Assembly (NCBI GenBank): GCA_013180625.2
Contig: SNVD02013915.1
Location: 744,001-808,000, forward strand
Origin: Boswellia sacra
Taxonomy: Eukaryota; Streptophyta; Magnoliopsida; Sapindales; Burseraceae
Direction: 5' to 3'
Length of the DNA stretch: 64,000 nt
Shown here: piece by piece, positions 1,855-61,894 of the stretch
Position numbering within the stretch: position 1 is the stretch's first letter
How the letters are laid out: each line of letters opens with the position of its first letter
Notes under the pieces: model-generated
Database searches by the model: none
Told to the model about the DNA's origin: nothing
What the model saw: only the letters and a program-made list of their open reading frames with translations
Translations under genes and position numbers: made by a program

Positions 1855-3215
1855 AATCCTTACACAAACCTATCTATGAACCACAAAGAAGACTTAATCC
1901 ATACATGAAATAGGTTGTGGGAGCTGAAATCTTAAAATTACTTGATGTAGGAATCATTTGTTTTATTTCGTACAGCAAATGGGTAAGCCCAATTCAAGTT
2001 GTACCAAAGAAAATGGGGTTCATAGTTGTCAAGAATGAAAATAATAAACTTGTATTAACAAGAGCCATGATTGGATAGAGAGTTTGTATTGACTAGAGGA
2101 AGTTAAATTCTTTAACTTGAAAGTATTAGAAGGCTTAAAGTATTAATGTTAAGCCCACATCTACAAGCTTAAGCTTTTAGAAAAGTGGCAAACTTAACAT
2201 GGTATCAGAGCCATAATGACCTAACGGTCGCAGGTTCAAATCCCCTCCGTGTTATTTAAAAATTAATTAAAAAGTGTTGTTGTTTGGCCCACTGGGGCAT
2301 GTGAGGTTTGATCTGGTCCACGTAGCAAGTGGACGGGACCCTTGCACGTGAGGGGGCGTATTAGAAGTCTTAAAGTATTAATGTTAACCCCACATCTACA
2401 AGCTTAAGCTTTTAGAAAAGTGGTAAACTTAACAAAAAGGATCACTTGCCATTACCTTTTATTGATTGAATGCTTGAAAGGTTGGCAGGTCACTCACACT
2501 ATTGTTTTCTTGATGGTTTTTTAGGTTATAACCAAATTGCAATAGCCTCAAAAGATCAAGAGAATACCAAATTTATTTGTCCATTCAGAACCTTTGCTCA
2601 TAAACAAATGCCACTTGGTTTGTGCAATGCTTTTTAACCATGTTCCAAAGGTGTATGATAGCCATATTTTTTAATATGAATGAAATGTTCATTGAGGTTT
2701 TTATGAATGATTTTTCTTTTTTTGGTTCTTCTTTTGGTGAATGCCTTCACCATCTAACTTTGTTTCTTAAATGGTGTCAAGAAAAAAAATCTAGTTCTTA
2801 ATTGGGAGAAGTGCCATTTCTTGGTAAGACAAGGCATTGTGTTAGGACATATGATTTTTAGCAAAGCCATTGAAGTGGACAAGGCAACAACTGATCTAAT
2901 TGCAAATTGGTTGCCTCCCACATTAGTTAAAAGAGTGAAGAATTTCCTTGGCCATGCTTGGTTTTATAGATGTTTCATTAAGGAATTTTCTAAAATTTCA
3001 CATCATTTGTGCAATCTTTTGGCTAAAGGTGTTATTTTGCACTTTGATAGAGATTGTTTGGATTCTTATAATGCTTTGAAATGTGAACTAATATTTTCTC
3101 CTCTTATTATGGCACCAAATTGGTCATTACCCTTTCAATCAACGTGTCATGCTTTTACTTTCTTGTTGGTGCAATTCTAGGCCAAAGAATAAACAATTTT
3201 CCTCCTGTTATCTAC
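1855..3215 (+). pseudogene. Degenerate Ty3/gypsy (Athila-like) reverse transcriptase/RNase H remnant
   Basis: Broken frames translate to typical plant gypsy polymerase text. The fragment begins near 1918 with 'EILKLLDVGII', followed by 'KWVSPIQVVPKK' and 'VVKNENNKL'. After an interruption come 'DHLPLPFID', 'LDGFLGYNQIAIA', 'TFAHKQMPLGLCNAF', 'LVLNWEKCHFLV' and, in the 2821-3180 frame, 'FLGHAWFYRCFIKEFS' ahead of the RNase H linker 'ILGQRINNFPPVIYY'. The catalytic YVDD-type motif reads 'FMNDF' near 2703, so the active site is lost. Several stops and frameshifts are present, for example just after 'LCNAF'. A TRIM at 2124-2434 splits the domain and another insert begins at 3219. The remnant is dead. 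Assignment to gypsy is firm; the Athila sub-lineage is inferred from wording shared with the 27-37 kb element. Confidence 0.85.
2124..2434 (+). mobile_element. TRIM (terminal-repeat retrotransposon in miniature)
   Basis: Two direct repeats of 76 bp (2124-2199 and 2359-2434) both begin 'tattagaag' and end 'aacttaaca', differing at only a few positions. The base after the left repeat starts 'tggtatcagagc' (2200-2211), the usual primer-binding site complementary to plant initiator tRNA-Met. Just before the right repeat is a purine run 'gtgagggggcg', a plausible polypurine tract. Flanks are 'gaaag' and 'aaaag', an imperfect 5-bp target duplication. The internal segment has no coding capacity. It is inserted in the reverse-transcriptase remnant. 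The internal 'ggttcaaatcc' near 2233 resembles a tRNA B-box. Confidence 0.85.
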
Positions 3216-3218
3216 TAT

Positions 3219-3595
3219 TGTAACATCCCCTAGACCCAAAATTCGATGCCACGTAAACCCATATTATCCTCTTTGGGACCCCTAATCAAAGACATAGTAC
3301 CTAACGGATTTGATCCTAAAGGACGCGTCCCTTATATCTTGAACTTAGGACATTACCTTGTTTTTGCAACATAAGTACCATTTGAAGCTGTACGGGATGT
3401 GCCTGGGACCTTTGGGGTCTTGGATAAAGCCATGAGGACTAATGCTGGGTTAGAATCCTAGGGGTGCCAAAGCGGACAACACAAGTTTATGGTGACATGT
3501 TAGGTCAAGGTGGTCCAATGGGGGCAGTGAACCCTGGGTGTCACATAACATGCTCAGGCCCCTGTAGGTCTGGTACATTGGGAAGGGGTGTTACA
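3219..3595. mobile_element. Solo-LTR-like insert with TGTAACA/TGTTACA ends
   Basis: A 377-bp block starts 'tgtaacatcccc' and ends 'ggggtgttaca', so its ends form an 11-bp inverted repeat with TG...CA termini, as LTRs do. It is distinctly more GC-rich than its surroundings and interrupts the RNase H reading frame exactly after 'PPVIYY'. I do not see a matching 5-bp duplication (actat versus tataa). No second copy lies in the window, so solo LTR is an inference. Confidence 0.45.
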
Positions 3596-27042: not shown

Positions 27043-27190
27043 AGGGGTGTTTGTTTATGTATTTTAAGTTTTTGTTTTTAAAGTTTGGTAAAAAAAATAT
27101 AGTTGATTTTAATTTTTTTTGAATTTTGAAAATAATATATAGTTGATATTGACTTAAATGTATTGTTTAATGTGCGTTTTCTAAAAATAG

Positions 27191-28607
27191 TGATAGGTGT
27201 CTATTTATGTATCATTTTCATATCAATTCATCTATGTTTCTTTGCTATAATCCTTGGTATTTTTATGTTTTTGTGTGGTTTTGATGTTTGTAGGAGTTTT
27301 GGAGGAACTTGCACCAAAGTGAAGTAAAACCCTTCATTTTCACCTCTGCTAGTCAACCATCTTCTCGGATTTAATTGTATTGATATACAATGAACCCGAT
27401 GACATGTTATATACCGTTGGAAAGCTCTCGAAGTCTATTTTCTGGAGAAATTTACGGTTTATAAATCCATTCAGTGTACCAAAAGTTGTAATCAAAACAG
27501 TGTGAGAAGTATAGAAATGTAATTCCACAAATCACTGTAGCATGTATAATACGGGACACTGTAGCAGGTTACTGTAGCATAGTATATAAACACATTTTAG
27601 GGTTTTATTTGAATAACTTGAAGAGGGGAGAACGTGGTGGAGGCTGCAGCTCTGGAATTCTTTCATCTCCTGGAGTTCTTGAAGGAGAAAGGAAGCTTGG
27701 AAAGAGGAAGAACTACAATCCACAGAGAATTACATCAAATTTGCTAAGTTTTTCCCTTCCCTTTCATTTTCTGGAATGTCTCCATGTTGTATTGTATTTA
27801 CCACGTTCTTAAACATGTGTAACTGAATCTGAATTGGTTGAGGGTGATTTCAAAGCCCCTGATATGGTTTTTGTAAGTTGATTGTGCAAGAAGTTGTTAT
27901 CCAATTCTCTAATTGAATTTGCTAGTATTTTCCTATATCTAATGCTTATGATTGCTTGCTATATTGTATTTCGAATGGCCAACTGAATATAATCTGGTTG
28001 TTGTCTATTGCTAGAGTATAAATCTTGATCCGTAATTGTCTTGAATTTCTAATCCTTAGTAGCAAAATTGTGATCAGAGATTGCAATTGGAGAATACAAC
28101 CTAAGTTAAATAATCCGAGCTTGTGTGTTTATTGCTTAGATCAACCTATCTTTCTTATCGTAATGCACCCATTGAATTAAATTTAGAGAGCTTGTTCTAG
28201 GTTGTTTAATGGATAGAGATTAAATAAAGAGTCTGTTTTATTTAACAACAAAGTAAGGAAAGATTGGGATAACAGAGCTTGTTGTTATCTACGGTTGATA
28301 ATTTCAATGGTGTAATTGGATGACAATTCTATGATTAATTCGCAAATCCATATCTTGTGGCAGAGAATGATCCCTTAACCGGATTTTTTGTCATTGATTA
28401 ATTCTCACTTCAATTAAGTTTGCATTGTGTTATTCTTTACTTGCATTAATATTTCATCTAGTTAACCAATCAACGAAACCCCCCCTATTTAGTTTATTGT
28501 TGCTGGAAAATAACAAATTCAATTAGAATCAATCCTCGTGGGAACGATATCTACTTATCACTTTATTACGTGTGCGACTAGTATACTTGCTAGTTTCGAA
28601 CGCATCA
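27191..28607 (+). repeat. 5' LTR
   Basis: The 1417-bp LTR matches 35695-37107 throughout. It contains three copies of 'actgtagca' (about 27534-27580) just ahead of a TATA box. Both LTRs contain the same small open frame near 'GERGGGCSSGIL', which is shared sequence rather than a demonstrated gene. Confidence 0.95.
27583..27590 (+). promoter_or_regulatory. LTR TATA box
   Basis: 'tatataaa' lies in the 5' LTR about 390 bases from its start, preceded by the tripled 'actgtagca' motif. The matching site in the 3' LTR (36084-36091) reads 'tatttaaa', so the upstream copy has the better promoter. Transcription would start about 30 bases downstream. Confidence 0.6.
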
Positions 28608-28613
28608 AGTTTT

Positions 28614-28630
28614 TGGCGCCGTTGCCGGGG
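28614..28630 (+). other. Primer-binding site for tRNA-Asp
   Basis: 'tggcgccgttgccgggg' is exactly complementary to the 3' end of plant tRNA-Asp(GUC) and lies six bases beyond the LTR. tRNA-Asp priming is typical of Athila/Calypso gypsy elements. Confidence 0.9.
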
Positions 28631-28713
28631 ATTGATTTTCTAATCAATTTGTTATTCTGTTTTTACTACTGATTCTTGATTTTTATTTTCTGATTGTTTG
28701 TGTTTAGGCTTTT

Positions 28714-29938
28714 ATGTCCGAGAGAGAAGCGGATCAACGACTTAAGCGAATCAAGGAGTTTCTCGAATCCTCGAATTTAAGACTAAATCGGTCAATTTCA
28801 ACTCCACCTCCAGAATTTGACCTTGCACGACATACTTCCCTTCCATCTTCTTGCAGTTCAATCAAATCTGAATCGGAAGTAATGGTGATGCAAAACAATC
28901 AGACTCTTAAGGAGTTAGCGGCTCCAATTATTGATCAACAACCGCTGTGCATAAATCCCAACCTTGAGGTAGAATTTAAGCTTAAATCTGCACTAATTCG
29001 TCTCTTACCTACATTTCATGGTTTTGCAGGAGAGGATCCTATCAAATACCTCAGAGAATTTCATGTGGTATGCTCAACTATGAAGCCAACTGGCGTGTCT
29101 GAGGAGCAAATAAAATTGAGAGCTTTCCCATTCTCATTAGCAGATTCGGCGAAAGATTTGCTATACTATCTACCATCGGGTACCATCACCACGTGGAATG
29201 AGATAAGTAAACTCTTTTTAGAGAAATACTTTCCCACTTCGAAAGCTATAAACATTAGAAAAGATATCAGTGGCATTCGACAACACAATGGAGAATCACT
29301 TCATGAATATTGGGAGAGATTTAAAAGGTTATGTGCTATCTGTCCAAACCACCAAATTAGTGATGGACTCCTAATTCAATACTTCTATGAGGGTCTCCTA
29401 CTAATGGAAAGGAGTATCATTGATGCTGCTAGTGGTGGAGCACTAGTTAATAAAACATCGGAAGTTGCAAGACATTTGATTAGCGACATGGCAGGGAACT
29501 CCCAACAATTTAGCGGCCAATTTGAGCCACAACTACTGAGGAGAGTAAATGAGGTAAGTACCCCGAACATTGAACAACAACTTTTTGAGCTTACCTCTCT
29601 TGTAAAAAAAAATGGCTGCAGGACATATGCATCAATCTTATGTATGTGGAGTATGTTCTACCACGAAGCATCCAACCGATATGTGTCCAACTTTGCAAGA
29701 AAGAGATACGGAACAAGCCAATGCCATGGGTGGATTTCTAGGACAACCAAGCCAAAGTTATAGTAATCATCAACCAATCGCCCCAAATGCCATACCAAAT
29801 CGGCCACCAGGTTTCAATCAACCAAGAGTGCAGCAACCATTTCAAATGCAGCCACAACCAACACCACAACTAGCTCCACAAAACTCAGGTATGGCTCTCC
29901 AGGACATTGTTAAAGCACTTGCTACTAACACAATGTAA
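28714..29938 (+). pseudogene. gag: gag polyprotein (Athila type), frameshifted
   Basis: The ATG at 28714 opens a 349-codon frame. Residues ~90-250 carry the gypsy gag core: 'LLPTFHGFAGEDPIKYLREF', 'LPSGTITTWNEISKLFLEKY', 'GESLHEYWERFKRLC' and 'DGLLIQYFYEGLL'. Gag forms the particle that packages the element RNA. Near 29606 a nine-base A run appears to have slipped, since the continuation is in another frame (29612-29938) with a CCHC-like knuckle 'CGVCSTTKHPTDMC' and a Pro/Gln-rich tail. That frame ends at a TAA (29936-29938), after which the same text resumes in a third open frame. Breaks therefore separate the particle domain, the knuckle and the protease. No product of normal length can be made without recoding. 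Confidence 0.85.
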
Positions 29939-30795
29939 TTTCAGCAGGAAACTAGGGCAAGTATCCAACACCTGGAAAATCAAATAGGACAATTGGCTAC
30001 TAACATGAGCAAATTCAAGAGTCAAAGCTTAGAAAAATTACCTTCTCAGACAGTGATCAATCCAAGAGAGAATGCTAGTGCAATAACTTTGAGAAGTGGA
30101 AAGCAATTACAAGTCCCACAAAAAAAGTCACAAACTAATGAAGGGGATGACACCACTTCCACCATGAACAAAACATCATCTTCTAAGGTAGATCTTAAAA
30201 CTCAAATTCCTTCTTATGTTACTCCTCCACCATTTCCTAGCAGATTTGCAAAATCAAAGAAGGAAGAACAAGAACAAGAAATCTTGGAAACTTTTCGCAA
30301 GATTGAGGTAAATATATCACTTTTGGATGCTATTAAGCAAGTGCCTCGTTATGCAAAATTTCTCAAGGAGTTATGCACCAACAAGAGAAAGTTGAAGGGA
30401 AATGAGAAAGTAAGTGTGGGGGAAAATGTTTCAGCTGTACTACAAAGAAAAATTCCTCCGAAATGCAAAGATCCAGGTACGTTTACCATTCCAAGCACCA
30501 TTGGTAGAACCAAGTTTGAAAGGGCTATGTTAGATTTAGGAGCATCTATTAATGTCATGCCATATTCTATTTATGCTTCTTTAAATCTTGGACCTCTTGC
30601 GGAAACTGGTATTACCATTCAACTTGCTGATCGTTCTAAGGCATATCCCAAGGGAGTTGTGGAAGATGTTCTTGTGCAGGTAAATCAATTGGTTTTCCCT
30701 GCAGACTTCTATGTTCTTGAAATGGAGGATGAGACATCTCCTAATCCAACACCGATTCTTTTAGGGAGATCCATTCTTGAAAACTGCTCGAACTA
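29939..30795 (+). pseudogene. gag C-terminus and aspartic protease
   Basis: The frame open to 30796 has the linker phrases 'NPRENASAITLRSGKQL' and 'IPSYVTPPPFPSRF' found between gag and protease in Athila elements, then the retroviral-type protease around 'MLDLGASINVMPYS' (active-site DLGAS near 30533) and its end 'TPILLGRSIL'. A one-base shift at about 30775 moves the expected continuation ('TARTKIDVHDGTLTMEFDG') to another frame at 30777-31175. The protease itself looks complete and its catalytic Asp is kept; some plant elements have DTGA, this lineage often DLGA. Confidence 0.85.
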
Positions 30796-31420
30796 AGATT
30801 GATGTTCATGATGGCACTCTCACCATGGAGTTTGATGGCGAGGTGATTCGTTTCAATATTTTTAAGGCAATGAGGTATCCTAGTGACTTGCATTCTGTTT
30901 TTGCAGTTGACATTATTGATTCTTTGCCACAACAATGTTTTGAGTTAACTCGCAAGGATGGATTGGAAATGGCTATTAGTGAGCACATAGGGACAGAAAA
31001 TTCCAAAGAACCAAGAAGGTTGATACAAGTGTCCAAAGAAATGGAGGAAGCTATGGCATGCTTAGATGAGACTATAGCTATAATCACAAACAGGTATGAT
31101 GTTTCGTACATTGAATTGCTTTATCTAATGAAAAGTTCTTCCTTCTGTGATGAAAGCCAATACCTTGGAGCTTAAGCTACTTCCAGATTATTTGAGGCAT
31201 GTGTTTTTGGGTGAGAATAATTCTTTGCCAGTTATAATAGAAATGGGCCTTGCACCACTACAAGAAGAGAAACTCGTCAAAGTACTTAGAGATCACAAAA
31301 TAACTATTGGGTGGACGATTGCTAACATCCAAGGCCCAGCCATACGCATGCAATAATTCTTATTGGAAAAAAGATCCAAGCCCACTAGAGAAGCACAGCA
31401 GAGATTGGATCCTCCCATGA
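30777..31420 (+). pseudogene. Truncated start of the pol region; reverse transcriptase missing
   Basis: Two frames continue the polyprotein after protease: 'KIDVHDGTLTMEFDGEVI' and 'VDIIDSLPQQCFEL' in 30777-31175, then 'LELKLLPDYLRHVFLGENN' and 'LVKVLRDHKITIGWTIANIQ' in 31147-31356. The last polymerase-like words are about 'SKPTREAQQRLDPPMMEP' (to 31425), the segment that normally sits just before the reverse-transcriptase core. Immediately afterwards the sequence becomes 3' non-coding Athila text. The polymerase, RNase H and integrase were thus removed in one deletion, which defines the element as non-autonomous. Confidence 0.8.
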
Positions 31421-31425
31421 TGGAA

Positions 31426-31885
31426 CCAATGTCGGGCTGAGGACGTTAAACCAAGCGCTTATTGGGAGGCAACCAAATGTTTTTGAAAAATAAAAAAAGA
31501 AGAAAAGAAAAATAAAATAAGGTAATAATGATCGATTTTTGTGTCTCGAGGAGATTCCTTTCGTAGGCCATCAAATTGATTAGGTTTTATCTCTCTTTGC
31601 CATCTGTCTTATTTGTTTTTTTAATATTATTTTACTTGTTTTTGACTTTTGTTTGCTATTGTGTTGTTATCTCTTTTATGTGTCTTTAGTTTCGTTTCTG
31701 CTCTTTTCTTTTCCTTCCTTTTGTTTAATTTGATGATTCTGTACTTCGAATTCATTTGTGCAACAGCTTGAGGAAACATCCAAACTGGAGCTGAAGTCAT
31801 TGCTTGAAGGTTTGAAACGTGCATATCTTGGAGAAGAACAGACTCAATCGCATTATCGGTAATATCTCTCCTTTTCTTCTCTTTA
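31426..31885 (+). other. Post-deletion 3' leader with a second, diverged pre-RT word
   Basis: 'gacgttaaaccaagcgctta' at 31443 followed by 'ttgggaggcaacc' is the conserved region that normally follows pol in Athila elements. At about 31765-31860 a short stretch translates to 'SKLELKSLLEGLKRAYLGEE', which resembles a diverged second copy of the 'LELKLLPDYLRHVFLGENN' word at 31160. It may mark an older template switch. No longer frame is present. Confidence 0.5.
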
Positions 31886-32440
31886 ATGGATGCCGATATC
31901 TTTCTGTTGAACCTTCGTAAATATTTTCCTTCACTTCCTCAAAATGCTGTGTTTAAAATTTATAAATTACGGATGACTAGACTTTGGGTACTGATGCTCT
32001 TAAATATGCCTGCGGATATCCGATGGCTTATCGAAGCCAAGGTGAGATTGTCCGGTGAGCCGGACATTAATCTCGCAAAATACATACCTGGTCTAGAAAA
32101 GAGCTACTAGGCCAAGAGGCGAAGAGCGAAAAGGTTACAAGTATGTTATAAATGTGCTAGATGGAATTGTAACCATACTTGTCGTTCATTAGGTTTTGCG
32201 TCCAGGAATAGAGAAGATAAACTTTCATTTATTAAGAATGGTTTGAGTAATGAGTCGCTGGATAATATTTTGTTAACTCTCGAGTCACATTCTTGTGGAC
32301 TTGTTCAGCGTGAATTGCTTAATCTATGGACACACTTTCGTGTTGAATTGCAGTGTTATAGTCTAGGGAATCTGACTAAAAACGACCCTGTTTGCCAGTT
32401 TATAAGAAACCTGGATGGGAAGCAAATCCCCGACTCATAG
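31886..32440 (+). pseudogene. Basic, cysteine-rich frame resembling a betaflexivirus nucleic-acid-binding protein
   Basis: A single frame runs from the ATG at 31886 to the stop at 32440, broken only by one TAG at 32108-32110. Before the stop lie about 74 residues with a hydrophobic middle ('MTRLWVLMLLNMPADI'). After it lie a basic run 'AKRRRAKR' and a closely spaced cysteine/histidine cluster 'CYKCARWNCNHTC' (32144-32182), then about 85 further residues with no motif I know. The order hydrophobic segment, basic run, zinc-finger-like cluster matches the small 3'-proximal proteins of Betaflexiviridae (carla-, viti- and trichovirus-type), which bind nucleic acid and in some genera suppress RNA silencing. 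This match is from remembered family features only. It could instead be an unknown plant or env-region protein. It lies in sense orientation, between the pol deletion and LOG. Confidence 0.4.
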
Positions 32441-33053
32441 AAGGCGTTTCAGCCGTTACTGGACGTAAAACCAGAGGAAGATGTGAGCCACAATCACAAC
32501 TACTTGTATATTGAATGTGTGTTGTTGTTGTCTAATTTTATTTCTCTCTTGTTTCGTTTGATCTGATTATCAATGTTGTTTTTGTGTTGTTGTTGTTTGT
32601 TGATTTGTTTGTTTTAATTTCAAGTTTTCTTTTTGACAAACCATATGACTACCCTATGGCATAAGTACACGTGGGAGACAAGTGTGGAGGTTTTGTCAAC
32701 CTCCGCCGAAAGTGTATCTCCTTTTTTTATGTTTCACGTGGGAGACAAGTGTGGAGGTTTTGTCAACCTCCGCCGAAAGTGTATCTCCATTTTCCATGCT
32801 TCACGTGGGAGACAAAGTGTGTAGGTTTTGTCAAACCTCGCCGAAAGCATATCTCATTTTTTCAAATCTTGAGGCGATAAATCTGCATCGAGCAACCCCC
32901 ACCGAAATTATGTCCCCATTGCAAATTGAGAGTTACGTGTGTATATATCCATTTTGCATATTCTCAAATGTCATTTTATAACCTGTCTTGCACTGAATCG
33001 CATAATACCTAACGTACATTATTGTCTTGCACAAGTTTAGAGCACTTTTAGAA
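32441..33053 (+). other. Spacer between the two captured frames
   Basis: It contains a T/G-rich 'ttgttgttg' stretch (32520-32625), the 67-bp triple repeat, and 150 bases leading to the LOG start. No coding sequence is recognised. Confidence 0.5.
32668..32868 (+). repeat. 67-bp tandem repeat, three units, each with a hairpin
   Basis: Units start 'cacgtgggagaca' at 32668, 32735 and 32802, exactly 67 bases apart; the third is more diverged. Each contains the palindrome ggaggtt-ttgtc-aacctcc, able to form a 7-bp stem with a five-base loop. The unit also begins with a G-box core 'cacgtg'. The overlapping open frames at 32633-32981 just read through the repeat. Confidence 0.9.
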
Positions 33054-33703
33054 ATGGAGAAAACACCAATTCGGCGATTCCAAAATATATGCGTATTTTG
33101 TGGATCGCAATTTGGTAAAGATGGAGAGTTTACAATAGCAGCTCTTGATCTTTGTAGGACATTAGCTGCGAGGGGTATTCATTTGATTTATGGAGGGGGT
33201 AGTCTTGGGTTAATGGGGTGTGTGTCGACAGCTGCATCCTTGGGAGGAAGTAAAGTTCTCGGCATTATCTCTAAACCATTAGCTGTGCGAGATATCATAG
33301 GCAACACAATGGGGGAAGAGTTACAGGTCTCTAGCATGCATGAGCGTATTGCACATATGGTCATTAAATCTGATGCATTTATAGCTTTGCCGGTGGTTAT
33401 GGTACATTAGAGGAGATATTTCAAATCACCTCTTGGGCACAGCTAAACATCCATCGGAAACCCATTGGTTTGTTAAATGTCAATAATTTTTTTGATGGTT
33501 TGTTGTCTTTTCTTGATCAAGCAGTAGAAAAAAACTTTATCTCACAGTCGACGAGGCAAATCCTGGTTACAGTTTCAACTGCAGGGGAATTAATTGACAA
33601 ATTACAAGCATTCGTCTATTCGCCTGATCCAACAATAGCTCGGATAGATTGGTTTGCGGAAGGCAATAAAAAGCGTAAACTGGATTTAACGCTAAGTCTG
33701 TAA
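33054..33703 (+). pseudogene. LOG-like: Captured LOG gene (cytokinin riboside 5'-monophosphate phosphoribohydrolase), one frameshift
   Basis: LOG enzymes release active cytokinin bases from their nucleotide 5'-monophosphates. From the ATG at 33054 the frame reads 'RFQNICVFCGSQFGKDGEF' (Rossmann start), 'IHLIYGGGSLGLMGCVS' (nucleotide loop) and 'HERIAHMVIKSDAFIALP', then ends at 33410 because one base is missing at about 33389-33391. In the shifted frame it resumes as 'GGYGTLEEIFQITSWAQLNI', 'RKPIGLLNV' and runs to TAA at 33703, with the last residues 'NKKRKLDLTLSL'. The combined length (~216 codons) is that of a complete LOG protein. The break falls inside the PGGYGTxEE signature, the catalytic motif, so the gene is inactive unless recoded. 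Plant LOG genes have several introns and this copy has none, indicating capture through RNA. It lies in sense with the element. Confidence 0.9.
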
Positions 33704-35682
33704 TCTTTATCTACTGGTTTGCTTCACTTTTGTTTGCTTTCTTTTTATTGTGTTTATTTGAGATTTTTCATGTTATTTCTTTTGAGCTTTTTCAGGTTAT
33801 TTCTTTCGTTTCAGGTAATATTTTCTAATCTGGTTTTTAGAGTGGTGGCTTAAAAAGTTCAAGTTCTCTTGAAACGCATTCTGGATTTCTTTAATCCATA
33901 ATGGCTGAATAAGGAGGCTAACTTCTAAACTTTTTAGACCCATTCTAACTGAATTGTTTTTGTTTGTTGACTTGTTGGACTTTGTTATTTTATGAGTAAG
34001 TTTAGTTTTATGTAATTTAGAGTTGTTATGTGTTTTTGTCTTTATCAGTTTCGATTAAAAAAAAAATTGTGGAAAAAACTTGAGAATGGCAGAATATGGG
34101 GTTTCTTCAACCCTTGAAACGCATTCTCTCGAAATAAATCTGTCGTTTGTTTGTTTCATGTTGTTTGAAGTGTCTTGTTTCTTGTTTTGTTCTTTCTAAT
34201 AAAGGTATATAGGCTGGAAACCTTAAGTCTGCGGGCTACTGGTCCTAAGGATTGTTGAAATATATAATCTTGACTCAGGTGTAACAACGCCACGTACCTC
34301 TTTTCTTGCATTTTGTGGGTCGATGATAAGATAATGATTGAATTGAGAATAACTCTTGGAAAATGATAAATGATGCATGGATCTGTGTGCTTGAAATGTT
34401 TATTGGTTTTCGCTTTGCCTTTGATTCCTTGTGCAACATTGAGCACTAAGCCATTATCACTGAGTTATTTGTTTACTTAGAGAAAGTTTATGTAATTTAA
34501 GTGTTTCTTCAGATTTCGATGAATTCTAGAACTTGTTTGATGGTCACTCGAGGCGAAATCCTAGACTGTGCAACATTAGGGAAATGAATTAGGTCATCTT
34601 TGGACCGTTTGAGCCTTAATAGCCACCCTTGACTGAAATTGATCCCTAGTTACCCCTTTGAGCCTTTGTAAGCCTTTTTTTTTCTTGTTAACTCACTAAA
34701 AGATTTCCTAACCTCAAATGAATTTTTTTTTCCAAAACAGTTTATCGATTACCCATGAGCATGTAGATCCTTCACGATTACATTTTGAGCTCTGTTCTGG
34801 TTTTGGGAAGTCAGAGGAGGTTGGGTTGTGTCATAAGCAATGCAAGTGAGTTCTATTGTGTTTGTAAAAAAAAAAAAAAGAAGAAAAAAAAATCAATATG
34901 TACTTCTTGTCCACATACTTACACATTGAGGACAATTTGTTGTTTAAGTGTGGGGGAGGGGAAGTGTAATAAAAAAAAAAGAAAAAAAGAGAAAAAAAGA
35001 GAAAAAAAGGAGAAAAAAAAAGAAGAAAAAGAGATCTATACCCTTAAGTGTTCTTAAAAAGAATGAAACAACAAAGTGTGGAGGTGTAGTTTTCTTTTGT
35101 TTTCTACAAAAAATAAAAAAAGATTGAGTGTTCTGAATAAGTTTGGGGGAGTAACCTGGTGAATTGAAATAAGTTGTGTTATAAGGGTTGAGCTCCACAT
35201 ATTCTTGAATGATTTATGTGTTTGTGGGTGATTTGATCCAAATTATTATCCTTTATCATACCTTCACCCAAGCCAAACGTTACAAGCTTAATAAAGTCCT
35301 ACTTGATCCTTGGTGTTGTGCATGTCTACATTAGTGGAGAGTGACTTGAAAAGCAAGCCTATGGAGTTCATTTATACGCATATCTTCACTATTAAATATG
35401 ATTCATTTTTATGCATAAACTCATCCGGGTTACAAATGATTAGGTGAGAATGGCTCTACACATACACACGTGAGGAATTGAAGTAGAGTGAAACTAATCT
35501 TTGTAATGAGATTCTTGATCAAATGCATTATTTTGAAGTTTTCCTTGGGTTATAATTAAGTACAATCTTTGAGGCCTATTTGCAAGTTAAAACATGTGTG
35601 TTTTAATTTTTTATTTGATTCTGTTTAGATTTAGTTTTGTTTTCATATCGTTGTAGTTGCTCGAGGACTAGCAAAGTCTAAA
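33704..35682 (+). other. 3' non-coding region of the retrotransposon
   Basis: No gene is visible. 'gaaacgcattct' occurs twice (about 33873 and 34118). A-rich and A/G-rich runs lie at 34866-34892 and 34968-35035, each near the phrase 'aagtgtgggggagggg' or similar, reminiscent of purine tracts repeated in the Athila 3' region. Short open frames here are low complexity. Confidence 0.6.
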
Positions 35683-35694
35683 TGTGGGGGAATT
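35683..35694 (+). other. Polypurine tract
   Basis: 'tgtgggggaatt' abuts the 3' LTR and fits the site where plus-strand DNA synthesis begins. Confidence 0.75.
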
Positions 35695-37107
35695 TGATAA
35701 GTGTCTATTTATATATCATTTTCATATCAATTCGTCCATGTTTCTTTGCTATATTCCTTGGTATTTTTATGTTTTTGTGTGGTTTTGATGTTTGTAGGAG
35801 TTTTGGAGCAACTTGCACAAAAATGGAGTAAAACCCTCATTTTCACCTCTGCTAGTCAACCATCTTCTCGGATTTAATTGTATTGATATACAATGAACCC
35901 GATGACATATCATATACCGTTGAAAAGCTCTCGAAGTCTACTTTTTGGAGAAATTTACGGTTTATGAATCCATTCAGTGTACCGAAAGTTGTAATCAAAA
36001 CAGTGTGAGAAGTGTAGAAATGTAATTCCACAATCACTGTAGCATGTATAATACGGACACTGTAGCACGTTACTGTAGCAGAGTATTTAAACACATTTTA
36101 GGGTTTTATTTTGATAACTTGAAGGGGGGAGAACGTGGTGGAGGCTGCAGCTCTGGAATTCTTTCATCTCTTGGAGTTCTTGAAGGAGAAAGGAAGCTTG
36201 GAAAGAGGAAGAACTACAATCCAAAGAGAATTACATCAAATTTGCTAAGTTTTTCCCTTCCCTTTCATTTTCTGGAATGTCTCCATGTTGTATTGTATTT
36301 ACCACGTTCTTAAACATGTGTAACTGAATCTGAATTGGTTGAGGGTGATTTCAAAGCCCCTGATATGGTTTTTGTAAGTTGATTGTGCAAGAAGTTGTTA
36401 TCCAATTCTCTAATTGAAGTTGCTTGTATTTTCCCATATCTAATGCTTATGATTGCTTGCTGATTGTATTTGGAATGGCCAACTGAATATAATCTGGTTG
36501 TTGTCTATTGCTAGAGTAGAAATCTTGATCCGTAATTGTCTTGAATTTCTAATCCTTAGTAGCAAAATTGTGATCAGAGATTGCAATTGGAGAATACAAC
36601 CTAAGTTAAATAATCCGAGCTTGTGTGTTTATTGCTTAGATCAACCTATCTTTCTTATCGTAATGCATCCATTGAATTAAATTTAGAGAGCTTGTTCTAG
36701 GTTGTTTAATGGATAGAGATTAAATAAAGAGCCTGTTTTATTTAACAACAAAGTAAGGAAAGATTGGGATAACAGAGCTTGTTGTTATCTACGGTTGATA
36801 ATTTCAATGGTGTAATTGGATGACAATTCTATGATTAATTCGCAAATCCATATCTTGTGACAGAGAATGATCCCTTAACCGGATTTTTGTCATTGATTAA
36901 TTCTCACTTCAATTAAGTTTGCATTGTGTTATTCTTTACTTGCATTAATATTTCATCTAGTTAATCAATTAACGAAACCCCCCCTATTTAGTTTATTGTT
37001 GCTGGAAAATAACAAATTCAATTAGAATCAATCCTCGTGGGAACGATATCTTACTCATCACTTTATTACTTGTGCGACTAGTATACTTGCTAGTTTCGAA
37101 CGTATCA
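35695..37107 (+). repeat. 3' LTR
   Basis: The 1413-bp partner of 27191-28607 differs by scattered substitutions and a few one-base indels. Its TATA box is altered to 'tatttaaa'. Confidence 0.95.
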
Positions 37108-37140
37108 AATAGTTTTAGGAATACATAAACAAACGACCCT

Positions 37141-52763: not shown

Positions 52764-55700
52764 TCATTGTTGCTCTTGGGAGAACCACCTAGTCACTGCA
52801 TGCATGAATAACCACATGAAATCAGTAGGGATTAGTAAAATACATCAATCTATTTTTAATTAATAAGATATACCTCTTCCTCTCCCCATTACATTTGAGT
52901 TTTGAGTTTGCTGAGATGCTGTTGGGGCTGAGCATCCAATATCTTGTGAGGCTTCATATGTCTGAGATGATGGAATGTTTGCTGGAGTCCGAGATGTAGC
53001 TACACCAGGTTGAGAAGAAGTTGCTTCAGTATGACTTGGAGTTGGTTGAGAAGATGTTGCTTCAGTTGATGGTACTCCCTGGAGCAGTGAGTAATATTAA
53101 TCAGTGAAATGGTAATGAAAGTAACTTATATGAAATTTGTAATTTTACCCATTTTTTCTTTGTAACTGGGAGTTTTTGTATCCTTTCTTCATTTGGCTGA
53201 GAAGTTGGTGCATTATTTGGATGAGATGATGGTGCATCAAGATTGATTTCTGGTCTATGAGCCTATGATGCAGCAGCTGAAGATGTACCCACATTGGATC
53301 TTTTTACCTTAATCATTAATCAAAGATCGATTATTACTTGTCAACATATAAATGTAATATTTCTTAATAGAGAAGATTAATATTAAAAATATAAATAGTT
53401 ACCTTTTTTTTTTAAAAGCACCTGGGGGATTTTTGCAAGTCCTTTTATTATGATTGTAGCCTCCGCAATTCTTACATATCATTGTGAAAAGCTTGGTAGG
53501 ACGGGGGTCTTCATCAGGAGCCCTTCTTCTAGATTTCTTAGGCCTGCCAGCCTTTGTCCTCATCTTGGGAGCTCCCAAATTGTTGCAAGGGACCTCTGGC
53601 CATTTATCTTGATCAGGGATAGGCTTGATGCAATGGTCATATGTTGCAATGTACTTCTCTTTATGCAGCATCTTGTTGACAAATTGATACACATCAATCC
53701 TTCTTTTCTTAGCACAAGTAATGGCATGCACACAAGGCATACCAGACACTTGAAACATACCACATGAACACCATTCTTCGGTCAACTTCACCACAAACAC
53801 CCTCCCATTATTAACAACTTCAAATTCTAGATTTCCACACCAAAGTACTTCAAGGCAATTAGCCCACTTTGCTCTATCAGTAATTATAGTCCTAATGTTT
53901 GGCCCAACATCAGTCTTCCACTTCAAGCATTCTTTCAACCTGAAATGAGGGATAGTTTGGAAAAATAAAAATACAAGTTTAGTAAGTATACAAAATGAGG
54001 CAGCAAGTATACAAAATAAAGCTTTATTTGATTAAAACAATGAAATTCAGAAAATAATTATATTTGATTATAACAGAAGAATGCAAAATAAAACTGTATT
54101 TGATTAAAAGAGCAAACTGCCAAAATAAATCACAAAATTAAAATCTAGAAATTAAATTAAATTAAATGAAAACTAAAGCAATTTACTTACTTCTTATGCA
54201 TTCTCTTCATAATTTTCCTTCTTATCTCTTCAACCATGCTAAGATATGTAAGACTCCTATATCGATTAATCCAAGAGTTAAACGATTCAGTTATATTGTT
54301 TGTTACATGATCAACTTTTACTCTTTTATCAAATGCATGCCGGCTCCAATTCATTGGAGGAATGTTGCTCAACCATTCATAAGCTCTGTCATCAATCTGG
54401 TTTATTTGTTCCATGGCTGCAGTGAAGGTATTAATATTGGCAGTCTTGCAAGCTTTCCAAAATAAAGATTGCAGTGCTGGTCTTGTATGTTGTTTTTTGA
54501 AATTTTCATAAACATGTTTACCACAATATCTATAGGATGCATATGGCCACTGTAAAGACAAAGCATTCAAAATTCCTTTTTGCCTATCACTCATGAATGT
54601 CATAGGCATCCCTAACCCATCCTGCCCTCCAATGTGTTGACCTAGGAGTTCTAGAAACCAATTCCATGTGGAATTGCATTCAACCTCACAAATTGCAATG
54701 GCTAAGGGAAACATCCCATTATCTGCAGCAATTGCCACAGCTGCCAATAAGACTCCCCCCATAGGCCCTTTAAGATGACAACCATCTACCCCCACAAATG
54801 GCCTACAACCAGCTATAAACCCTGCCCTATGTGCTAGAAAACTAAGAAAAAACCCCTAAAATTTTGGAGCAGCAGAGATTAGTGCTGCATCTGCCCTAAC
54901 AAAACATGTAATACAAGGGTTTGTTAGAAGGATGATGTTAGCATATTTATGCAACAAATTTAGAGCCTTTTGATGATGCTCACCAACAAGTTCTAAAGCC
55001 CTAGTCCCCGCCCTATATAGCTTTCGTTTTGTTGGTTGTAGCCCATATCTTCTCTTCATATCCTTCTCTAACCAGTCTACATCTAGATTAGGATTTTCCC
55101 TAAAATACTCCTCATACTTTTGGGCTATCCAAATATAAGTGCACTCAGGTGTGTCATTCGGTTTCTTACAATCATGGACAGGATATAAGCTCTTAATTTT
55201 GTATGTTATTAAGTCTTGTGTTGGGGAGGCATGAATCCTCCATGGGCAGCCTTCATTTGCACATTTACATGTCACTCTTTCTTTCTCATTTTTTATTCTT
55301 TTTAGCATTATCCCATTATGAATTGCATACTATCTAAGCACATCTCTAAAGTGGTCCACATTGTTAAAGGTTTGGCCAACCCTTAACTCAACCTTTCCCC
55401 CTAACCTAGTCTTAAAAAGCTTTCTGCTATGGATCCTAGCCATCCTAGAACTACCTACCTTATCATCTGAACTTGTAACAATTTTCTCAAAGTTTTCACC
55501 ATCACTCTGGTAGTGTGATTGGTCATCTTCAGAGTCATCTCTACTACCATTGCTACCATTCCCATCCCCACTATCCTCAAACTGAAACTCTTCATCACTA
55601 TTTGGCCTGTAATCAGCATTTGAATTCGGGTCATACTCATTGTGGCATATTGAATTTGCCATTGAACCTTCAGTTTCATCAACCCGATTACTCACACCCT

Positions 55701-56175
55701 CATTTACATCAACCCCATGACTAGCACCCTTATTGATATCAACCCCATGACTAACACCCTCATTCACATCAACCCCATGACTAACATTGTCCCTATCTGT
55801 ATCATTAACATTATTAGCTACATGTTCTCCAGATTTGTCTACCCCATTCAACTCAGGTTTGCTACCAGGAATCTCAAATGCAATTGGAGCAGTATCAAGA
55901 GGTGTAACCTCAACTGTAATTGTTATATCAAATATCTCCCTAATTTCATACATTTTCAAAATGTTTAAAAATGTGGAGTCACTGTCAATAACTATAACTT
56001 CACCATTCCAGGGTAAAGATACACTAAACTCAATATCCCTATGATCATAAACACCAAGTTCACAATAGTCATTAGCAGCACTAAATAATCCTATCCTAGA
56101 GACCTTATCAGGGTCTATAAAGCCAAATGGGATCTCACGACCCAATGACTGAAACGTTAACTAAAATTCTACCAT
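52764..56175 (-). pseudogene. mudrA-like: mudrA-type MULE transposase with four in-frame amber codons
   Basis: Five exons (54191-56175, 53403-53939, 53149-53299, 52874-53078, 52764-52795) join in phase to exactly 970 codons. Order: an N-terminal domain ('REIPFGFIDPDKVSRIGLFS'), an acidic region with a ~14-residue repeat ('SHGVDVNEG' four times), a MuDR DNA-binding domain ('CKCANEGCPWRIHAS'), the MULE catalytic domain (first Asp in 'GVDGCHLKG', second in 'MSDRQKGIL', then 'YCGKHVYENFK'), a SWIM finger (CxCx9CxH from 'CSCGMFQ' to 'PCVHA'), a CCHC knuckle 'CKNCGGYNHNKRTC', and a Ser/Thr/Gln-rich tail. TAG codons stand at 56161-56163 (codon 5), 55330-55332, 54856-54858 and 53263-53265; no other stop or frameshift is seen. 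It is therefore inactive as read, although otherwise well kept. Confidence 0.88.
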
Positions 56176-59227: not shown

Positions 59228-60552
59228 AGTTTAGACTAAATAAGAGTTATTTTGTTGGTTGTCTTGTGGCAACAAAACTAAATAACTAGCCTAATATTTC
59301 AAATTGTCATATCATTAACCTAGTCACTATTTGACAATCTGCTTGAAAAAAAATCTTGTTACGAAAAATTGTATTATAGCTAAATAGGATGCCTTATGGA
59401 TAGATTTTAATACTATGTTATAAATATGGTGAATGAGAGACATACCAAAAATCATACTTTTTTGTCTTTGTTTCTTGCTTCAAGTTGAATCTCTGCATCT
59501 ACTACATCTGCCTTCAACTTCTACATTCAAAATTCATGTCATACAAAATACGTATTCCTTGGTGAGAATGAGCATAACTAGTAGTTTTTGATACATATAC
59601 GTATCTTACATGGGAACATATACTTATTAACGCTTATTGATCTGTAGTTCTTTACTTTAGCTCAAGCCTCGACAGCAACCCACCTTTTATAGACATTATG
59701 TTGCAGAAAATACTTTTGCATGGGTGGGAAGATGTCTTATGCACTGTTCTCAACATCAAATTACTTATTTAGTGCATGAGAATCATTAATAGAATTAATG
59801 TTTCTTTGTGGTTCTTAATTTAAGTTTAGCCTCAATAGCAACCTAGTTAGGTTGGACATCATGTTTCAAAAAATACTTTTGTGTGGGTGAGAAGATGTCT
59901 TATGCACTATTCTCAAAGTCAAATTGCATATTTAGTGCATGAGAATCATTTCTGGAATTAATTTTTCATTATCTGTGGCTCTGAAGGTAAAGTGTCAACT
60001 ATCAATTCAGAATTAAAAGTTTAATGCTGGAAATCATGTTATTGAAAATATATTTTTAGAGGACAGAGAAAGTGGCCTACGGATAGTTTTCATATTTGTA
60101 ATTTTACCACTGAACATGCCAAAAATTAATGCTTCTTCCTTTGTGGTTCTTACTTTAGGTAGAAGCTCAACAACTATCAAGTTATTACCTAACATCTTAT
60201 ATATGGAAGAAACAATGTTGCAGAAAATACATTTTCAAGGGTAAGAAAAAGATGCCTTATGGTAGTTTTTAATAAAATAGACGCATAGAGCATGAAAAAT
60301 ATTTATCCAAGTAAAAGCTATGATAACTGATGCAGATGGAAACATATTGGTATTTGTAGCGGGAAATTATTACACACTATAGAAGAAAGACAAAACTACC
60401 CTTGATGGGTTGTCCAGCCTATTTCACAACGGGATCACGCAAGGGACGAATTTGCATAGTCAACAACGAACCACACATTTCATATTTCCGATCTCTGTAT
60501 CCCGGACAAGGTAGGAAACATCAAAAGAGAATGACATTGTCGCAGCACACAC
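59228..60552 (+). repeat. Tandem duplication, copy 1 (1325 bp)
   Basis: It runs from 'agtttagactaaataagag' to 'gtcgcagcacacac' and aligns base for base, with no net length change, to 60570-61894. About a dozen scattered substitutions are seen by eye. Inside are diverged ~150-200-bp sub-units built around 'ttgcagaaaatacttttgca', 'agatgtcttatgcactgttc', 'gcatgagaatcat' and 'tttgtggttctta', suggesting an older tandem array duplicated again as a block. Confidence 0.92.
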
Positions 60553-60569
60553 GCCTGTGCACAAAAGGA

Positions 60570-61894
60570 AGTTTAGACTAAATAAGAGTTATTTTGTTGG
60601 TTGTCTTGTGGCAACAAAACTAAATAACTAGCCTAATATTTCAAATTGTCATATCATTAACCTAGTCACTATTTGACAATCTGCTTAAAAAAAAATCTTG
60701 TTACAGAAAATTGTATTATAGCTAAATAGGATGCCTTATGGATAGATTTTAATACTATGTTATAAATATGGTGAATGAGAGACAAACCCAAAATCATACT
60801 TTTTTGTCTTTGTTTCTTGCTTCAAGTTGAATCTCTGCATCTACTACATCTACCTTCAACTTCTACATTCAAAATTCATGTCGTACAAAATACGTATTCC
60901 TTGGTGAGAATGAGCATAACTAGTAGTTTTTGATACATATACGTATCTTACATGGGAACATATACTTATTAACGCTTATTGATCTGTAGTTCTTTACTTT
61001 AGCTCAAGCCTCGACAGCAACCCACCTTTTATAGACATTATGTTGCAGAAAATACTTTTGCATGGGTGGGAAGATGTCTTATGCACTGTTCTCAACATCA
61101 AATTACTTATTTAGTGCAAGAGAATCATTAATAGAATTAATGTTTCTTTGTGGTTCTTAATTTAAGTTTAGCCTCGATAGCAACCTAGTTAGGTTGGACA
61201 TCATGTTTCAAAAAATACTTTTGTGTGGGTGAGAAGATGTCTTATGCACTATTCTCAAAGTCAAATTGCATATTTAGTGCATGAGAATCATTTCTGGAAT
61301 TAATTTTTCATTATCTGTGGCTCTGAAGGTAAAGTGTCAACTATCAATTCAGAATTAAAAGTTTAATGCTGGAAATCATGTTATTGAAAATATATTTTTA
61401 GAGGACAGAGAAAGTGGCCTACGGATAGTTTTCATATCTGTAATTTTACCACTGAACATGCCAAAAATTAATGCTTCTTCCTTTGTGGTTCTTACTTTAG
61501 GTAGAAGCTCAACAATTATCAAGTTATTACCTAACATCTTATATATGGAAGAAACAATGTTGCAGAAAATACATTTTCAAGGGTAAGAAAAAGATGCCTT
61601 ATGGTAGTTTTTAATAAAATAGACGCATAGTGCATGAAAAATATTTATCCAAGTAAAAGCTATGATAACTGATGCAGATGGAAACATATTGGTATTTGTA
61701 GCGGGAAATTATTACACACTATAGAAGAAAGACAAAACTACCCTTGATGGGTTGTCCAGCCTGTTTCACAACGGGATCACGCAAGGGACGAATTTGCATA
61801 GTCAACAACCAACCACACATTTCATATTTCCGATCTCCGTATCTCAGACAAGGTAGGAAACATCAAAAGAGAATGACATTGTCGCAGCACACAC
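60570..61894 (+). repeat. Tandem duplication, copy 2 (1325 bp)
   Basis: The second copy starts 1342 bases after the first; 17 bases ('gcctgtgcacaaaagga') lie between them. Its last 150 bases contain the frame 'GCPACFTTGSRKGRICIVNN' also present, with changes, in copy 1. It has no known domain. Confidence 0.92.

Follow-up and report, generated by a model that had tools for sequence, protein, structure and literature searches.

A 64-kb stretch of the Boswellia sacra genome (assembly GCA_013180625.2, contig SNVD02013915.1, positions 744,001 to 808,000 of the forward strand; hereafter the window, numbered from its first base) contains a structurally complete long terminal repeat (LTR) retrotransposon with broken coding parts at 27191-37107. 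This element most probably (with a probability of about 0.86) belongs to a non-autonomous Athila-type subfamily that lost its polymerase (pol) region through one deletion and was then amplified, and in which two extra open reading frames (ORFs), one resembling a viral nucleic acid-binding protein (NABP-like) and one of the LOG type, are resident parts of the family that have been kept by purifying selection family-wide.

The pol-less family and its pol-bearing siblings

The assembly of the source genome (638.6 Mb in 7431 contigs) was searched with window positions 31420-35690 as the query, and 45 matches were obtained from the 40 candidates scored of 9596. The 30 loci compared below (L004-L033) are the best-scoring of these 40, and are biased toward window-like copies. 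In 26 of the 30, the window's own included, the linker that precedes reverse transcriptase (RT) is joined to post-integrase spacer at the same deletion junction; L010 is broken at this point, L016 is shortened, and L011 and L021 have integrase there. The copy in L016 (positions 1-1140) adjoins a frame that by eye resembles the chloroplast ATP synthase beta subunit, atpB, and plastid DNA seemingly lies beside or inside this element.

A 29-base pattern across the deletion junction, with up to three mismatches, matches the assembly 3384 times (reversed control, none), and a pattern of the integrase end, representing the pol-bearing form, matches 1222 times (control, none); both counts take in shortened copies and possibly duplicate contigs. 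By these junction counts (3384 versus 1222) the pol-less form has multiplied beyond its pol-bearing parent, and it makes up about 5% of the assembly at most, a figure that would apply were all 3384 copies full length, which many are not. Two other copies have 5-bp target-site duplications of their own, GTTTG and ATTGT. These copies support the original prediction, made from the window alone, that replication multiplied the whole chimera as one unit; the opposite case, in which only one copy exists and its genes arrived separately, is excluded by the family that shares the junction. A single-copy accident is ruled out by the search of the assembly together with the 3384 junction matches.

Twelve further pol-less copies were hand-picked, non-randomly and off contig starts, from a list of some 100 exact matches to the junction; all 12 hold the NABP-like gene, and LOG is present in all 11 that are long enough. 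A second deletion, corresponding to the gag core at window positions 28710-29483, is common to C5351, C1128 and C375 (L037-L039), which are all three of the other pol-less copies whose 5' half was read; the gag core is kept in the window copy and in the pol-bearing L035. The two LTRs are 95.9% identical in C5351, 96.8% in C1128 and 99.2% in C375, where the 3' LTR is cut at the locus end and the figure refers to the 1348 columns read. Both the NABP-like and the LOG frames of C375 (L009) are open.

The order of events is apparent from the pol-bearing siblings, two of which were fully read. In L034 (the same element as L021), an open RT-RNase H-integrase frame of 963 amino acids (aa) lies between flanks that match the window element, with the Pfam domains RVT_1 (137-292), RT_RNaseH (383-484), Integrase_H2C2 (586-641) and rve (662-755); the protease-RT-RNase H-integrase order of Ty3/gypsy elements is found here, and the integrase is followed by an open NABP-like frame and then by LOG. 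L036 (the same element as L011) is also pol-bearing with both extra genes, and is more decayed than L034. In all eight further pol-bearing loci the integrase is followed by the NABP-like gene, full-length and open in three, and LOG is present in all six further loci tested for it, including the poorly preserved L061. Relative to L034, 2645 bp are missing from the pol-less form, with two filler bases at the joint: a single deletion of about 2.65 kb removed everything from RT to the end of the integrase. Because pol-bearing siblings carry both extra genes downstream of the integrase, these genes are older than the loss of pol. The original prediction correctly recognized two non-retroelement genes in sense orientation, as their LOG and Viral_NABP matches show, and misplaced them in space freed by pol; they occupy the usual region that separates pol from the 3' LTR, where extra ORFs of plant elements have been described (PMC7264820, in the excerpt used).

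Signs of selection on the two resident genes

Frames are open for the NABP-like gene in 24 and for LOG in 8 of the 30 loci. Nonsynonymous (N) and synonymous (S) variants were compared by frequency class, which is less affected by decay after insertion. For LOG in the 30-locus set, variants shared by at least four copies number 12 N:33 S, an omega of 0.12, and the singleton ratio is 109:36, an omega of 1.01 (p=8.4e-9). With the 12 picked copies added (n=38), variants in at least five copies number 8:28 and singletons 126:42 (p=4.5e-9), and the 12 alone give 7:18 versus 65:24 for singletons (p=9.5e-5). The spacer after LOG has 23:6 (omega 1.26, at least four copies) versus 88:38 in the 30-locus set (p=0.37). 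Purifying selection on LOG in the family as a whole is well supported. For the NABP-like ORF it is moderately supported, again for the family as a whole, by 3:7 for variants in at least four copies versus 74:43 for singletons in the 30-locus set (p=0.049; with all shared variants, p=0.11) and by 2:8 for variants in at least five copies versus 87:43 for singletons with the 12 copies added (n=41; p=0.0048).

Mean pairwise nucleotide identity among L004-L033 is 0.967 for the NABP-like gene, 0.931 for LOG, 0.927 for the spacer and 0.895 for the protease region, and the NABP-like gene has few indels among copies. Shared synonymous variants of this gene are fewer too in the same loci, and a constraint on the NABP-like RNA itself is possible.

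Exchange between the two forms is indicated by their trees. The two pol-bearing copies make up a separate clade in the protease block, 95.2% identical to each other and about 86% identical to the pol-less copies; in the LOG tree they are interspersed with pol-less copies (about 93% identity to all), one next to L017 and the other next to L006 (supports 0.865 and 0.847). This discordance points to an exchange of 3' halves between the pol-bearing and pol-less forms.

Several observations weigh against a pol-less subfamily with selected genes. Most of the picked pol-less copies are broken, with NABP-like frames open in 1 of 12 and LOG frames in 2 of 11; that most copies are dead is expected, as for old insertions. 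Among the 12 picked copies alone, the NABP-like comparison is non-significant (p=0.18). The spacer between the NABP-like gene and LOG leans in the same direction as the genes (18:11 versus 99:27, p=0.09), and the protease region, in pol-less copies only, gives 89:41 versus 227:71 (p=0.12; all shared variants, p=0.041); from these trends, part of the selection signal may be general. Because the 3' halves of both forms mix, selection is not assignable to the pol-less copies alone, and constraint may act in pol-bearing elements only. Membership of Athila, finally, is a tentative assignment made from structure.

Some of the same observations favour the strongest rival explanation, that the two genes are neutral passengers of master copies and that the synonymous excess was left over from selection that preceded capture, or arose through sampling: the majority of sampled copies are broken, the spacer and protease region partly follow the same trend, and LOG in Citrus and Populus elements is mentioned without a function in the excerpt of PMC9289625 used here. 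Passengers would, however, give an equal ratio across all frequency classes, whereas LOG singletons are neutral, variants in at least four copies are strongly depleted of nonsynonymous changes and the spacer after LOG is not; moreover, the NABP-like protein is conserved at 60-80% identity along its length in the 120 listed of 935 relatives. Neutral carriage is accordingly considered unlikely, and resident genes under family-wide selection remain the preferred reading.

The encoded proteins and the copy in the window

The NABP-like ORF (31886-32440, plus strand; 184 codons and a stop, with one internal stop) encodes a basic, cysteine-containing protein and matches Pfam Viral_NABP within 32111-32440 (E 6.8e-9; 36.4 bits, cut-off 23). 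NABP-like proteins also match Carla_C4 above its cut-off; at E<=0.001, 28 of 30 aligned family members match Viral_NABP and 24 match Carla_C4. The window piece has 22 relatives at 61-79% identity, with most full frames at about 182 aa, and a profile search with the family finds 935 proteins at E<=1e-3; the named hosts among the 120 relatives listed are Xanthoceras, Populus, Rhamnella, Acer and Orobanche. In L001, from a different source, a Gypsy integrase frame is followed by an NABP-like gene, the same order as in the window family, with no LOG in the remaining 980 bases. L001 (1-3330) is a contig in a bacterial bin (Candidatus Nomurabacteria), and is likely plant DNA. Between L001 and L013 the NABP-like dN/dS is 0.18 at a dS of 1.4, near saturation. 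The AlphaFold model of the family, at a mean pLDDT of 58.5 and a pTM of 0.30, is not strong enough to be used in a fold search, and a scan of viral contigs with the NABP-like alignment found no relatives. The family likely shares common ancestry with virus proteins, through transfer in either direction.

The matches to Viral_NABP and Carla_C4, which exceed their cut-offs, might be taken to mean that the gene is a recently inserted carlavirus-type segment (an endogenous viral element), an explanation that is given very little weight. The protein of about 182 aa is a family of its own, with 935 members and at least five named plant genera; it follows the integrase in the L001 element; the last 60 or so residues of several members fall outside the Pfam match; and the cysteine spacing of the family alignment is CX2CX4CX3C, not the CX2CX9CX4C printed for one carlavirus (PMC3689765, in the excerpt used), a spacing that was not found in the family. 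A young viral insertion is rejected on the strength of the 935-protein family and L001.

LOG enzymes are cytokinin riboside monophosphate phosphoribohydrolases. The LOG-type ORF (33054-33703, plus strand) has no introns and matches Pfam Lysine_decarbox (LOG) at 33006-33410 (E 1.4e-8) and 33374-33703 (E 9.1e-23). The LOG-family fold and PGGxGT motif are found in the family, the window copy being frameshifted beside the motif; ALPGGYGTLEE is present in four of the five open LOG frames found by the strict motif, and the fifth has H for P. The relative P0002 scores above the TIGR00730 cut-off but, with 120.2 of the 300 bits required, below that of the LOG equivalog. The LOG-type protein is plant-like, and among solved structures it lies nearest to At2g37210 and At5g11950 of Arabidopsis. 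A 27-protein tree places the element LOGs together with proteins from Reevesia, Populus, Parasponia, Diplodiscus and Pterospermum and separates them (support 0.999) from the ordinary LOGs of Arabidopsis, Dioscorea and Rhynchospora; one old LOG capture would be the simplest reading. The scan of viral contigs yielded one distant locus for the LOG alignment (44% identity) and no relatives of gag.

The claim of the original prediction that an Athila element took up foreign genes in exchange for its polymerase and became a gene shuttle, for which the absence of the pol core and the presence of two non-standard genes in one element can be cited, is scarcely credible: in pol-bearing siblings the two genes have the same position behind the integrase, the junction (31425/31428) is separate from the gene starts at 31886 and 33054, and the genes are resident family parts, with a LOG type whose closest grouping is with LOG-like proteins from other plants, away from ordinary plant LOGs.

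The window copy is flanked by the target-site duplication AATAG (27186-27190 and 37108-37112), and its features lie on the plus strand. The 5' LTR (27191-28607), with TG...CA ends, matches the 3' LTR (35695-37107) at 96.83% identity across 1419 aligned columns (39 mismatches, 6 gaps). Under a substitution rate for rice of 1.3e-8 per site per year, this difference would put the insertion at roughly 1.2 million years, or older if the host is slower. A stretch resembling a primer-binding site, TGGCGCCGTTGCCGGGGA, is present at 28614-28631 and presumably fits tRNA-Asp, and a polypurine tract lies at about 35680-35694. The overall structure originally described, with a 5-bp duplication, two LTRs and a polypurine tract, is thereby borne out.

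The N-terminal and core part of gag (28708-29763; Retrotrans_gag, E 2.2e-18) loses its frame near 29760, where the other copies read are about 50 bp longer, and the C-terminal part (29606-29938) is in a different frame, with a zinc-knuckle-like CX2CX4HX4C noted by eye. The protease region (29939-30796) matches Asp_protease_2 with E 1.4e-4 and 22.9 bits (cut-off 24.3); the matching region of the pol-bearing L036 is above the cut-off. It is followed by a protease-to-RT linker with broken frames (30765-31425), by the deletion junction (31425-31428), which lacks RT, RNase H and integrase and has the two filler bases, and by a spacer (31428-31885) equivalent to the post-integrase sequence of pol-bearing siblings. 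None of the nine window frames scanned has a Pfam match to RT, RNase H or integrase, and pol indeed halts before the RT core, as had been predicted. The accompanying statement that gag and protease remain holds in that both are detected, but each is frame-split and the protease is just below the Pfam cut-off; LOG is frame-split too, the NABP-like frame has its internal stop, and none of the four is whole. A tandem repeat with a period of 67 bp (32668-32864, 2.9 copies) lies between the NABP-like gene and LOG, and its copy number differs among other copies.

Three further features were noted elsewhere in the window: a decayed RT region (1866-3224), 50-70% identical to the pol of L034, from a separate and older Gypsy element; consecutive minus-strand frames (53399-56160) that by eye resemble a MuDR-type transposase; and two direct repeats of 1325 bp (59228-61894), 98.7% identical and 17 bp apart, with inner repeats of 165 bp.

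Proposed way of life and comparison with known systems

The full order of the family is LTR, gag, protease, RT, RNase H, integrase, NABP-like ORF, LOG and 3' LTR. One deletion, from RT through the integrase end, left an element that retained its LTRs, primer-binding site and polypurine tract and multiplied. The pol-less form is most likely mobilized in trans by Gag-Pol from pol-bearing siblings, as the shared LTR and 3' half suggest, and template switching, to which the discordant trees point, may swap the 3' half between both forms. Because purifying selection kept both extra ORFs family-wide, they probably help the element. By analogy with their relatives, the NABP-like protein perhaps binds nucleic acids or damps RNA silencing, and the LOG-type protein perhaps raises active cytokinin in the cell.

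A broader interpretation, more doubtful than probable, is that a widespread eudicot Athila-type lineage possesses, right after its integrase, a protein of the type that serves carlaviruses as a nucleic-acid-binding suppressor of silencing, that one branch gained LOG, a cytokinin-activating enzyme, and that both proteins serve the element so well that copies lacking pol and the gag core, C375 among them, persist with these two as their main intact genes. If so, in place of replication genes of its own, a retrotransposon would carry a hormone enzyme and a presumed factor against silencing. A supposed oddity has become a testable family, in which the virus-like ORF is most worth following. Should the NABP-like protein bind RNA or suppress silencing, a counter-defence protein would be shared by plant RNA viruses and LTR retrotransposons, and this would help to explain why pol-less elements outnumber their pol-bearing relatives; should the LOG-type protein be active, the element would bear a developmental hormone enzyme under selection.

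The abstract of Steinbauerova et al. 2011 reportedly mentions 'two Athila-like elements with similarities to LOGL4'. That paper is cited for LOG-bearing elements by PMC9289625, which itself, in the excerpt used, describes Gypsy elements with LOG-type domains from Citrus and, under looser filtering, from Populus. The original prediction knew of no LOG gene together with a virus-like gene in such an element. A LOG-family gene inside a plant Gypsy element was already in print, and a literature search did not find in print a conserved virus-like ORF of about 182 aa from several eudicot genera. The Citrus and Populus elements, with their YgdH/LOG domain, share this kind of gene with the window family but come from an RT-based screen and are thus pol-bearing, and neither a virus-like partner gene nor pol-less amplification is mentioned in the part of PMC9289625 consulted. 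The orchid Gypsy elements with an RNA demethylase (same excerpt) are similar in that a conserved extra enzyme became fixed in a Gypsy lineage; they differ in having another enzyme, complete 25-kb elements and activity in vitro. The carlavirus cysteine-rich protein (NABP) resembles the NABP-like family in its basic stretch beside a cysteine motif and in its Pfam profile match; the window family has a different cysteine spacing, a longer conserved C-terminal part and a retrotransposon as carrier (PMC3689765, excerpt).

As to lineage, the aRH domain, a second RNase H family that marks Tat (PMC6317226), was not detected in the pol of L034, the one copy searched, at E<=0.001. Athila ORF-1 (PF03078) was not found in nine window frames (E<=0.1) or four sibling frames (E<=0.001); it is present in 16% of Athila and is not a required feature (PMC6317226). 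The cut-off of 250 codons for extra ORFs in that study would omit both the NABP-like ORF (184 codons) and LOG (216 codons).

Non-retroelement genes are carried in an LTR element also by maize Bs1, from which the window family differs in being established, with thousands of copies and pol-keeping siblings. Other transduced host genes offer the same likeness (PMC13317346, in the excerpt used). A close parallel is found in Arabidopsis, where non-autonomous Athila elements are pol-less, contain ORFs under purifying selection and belong to recombining families (Marco and Marin 2008, PMC2410132, in the excerpt used). All three properties are shared with the window family, but the Arabidopsis elements keep Gag or Env whereas the window family keeps the NABP-like protein and LOG; its way of life is that of the Arabidopsis non-autonomous Athila elements, with different kept genes.

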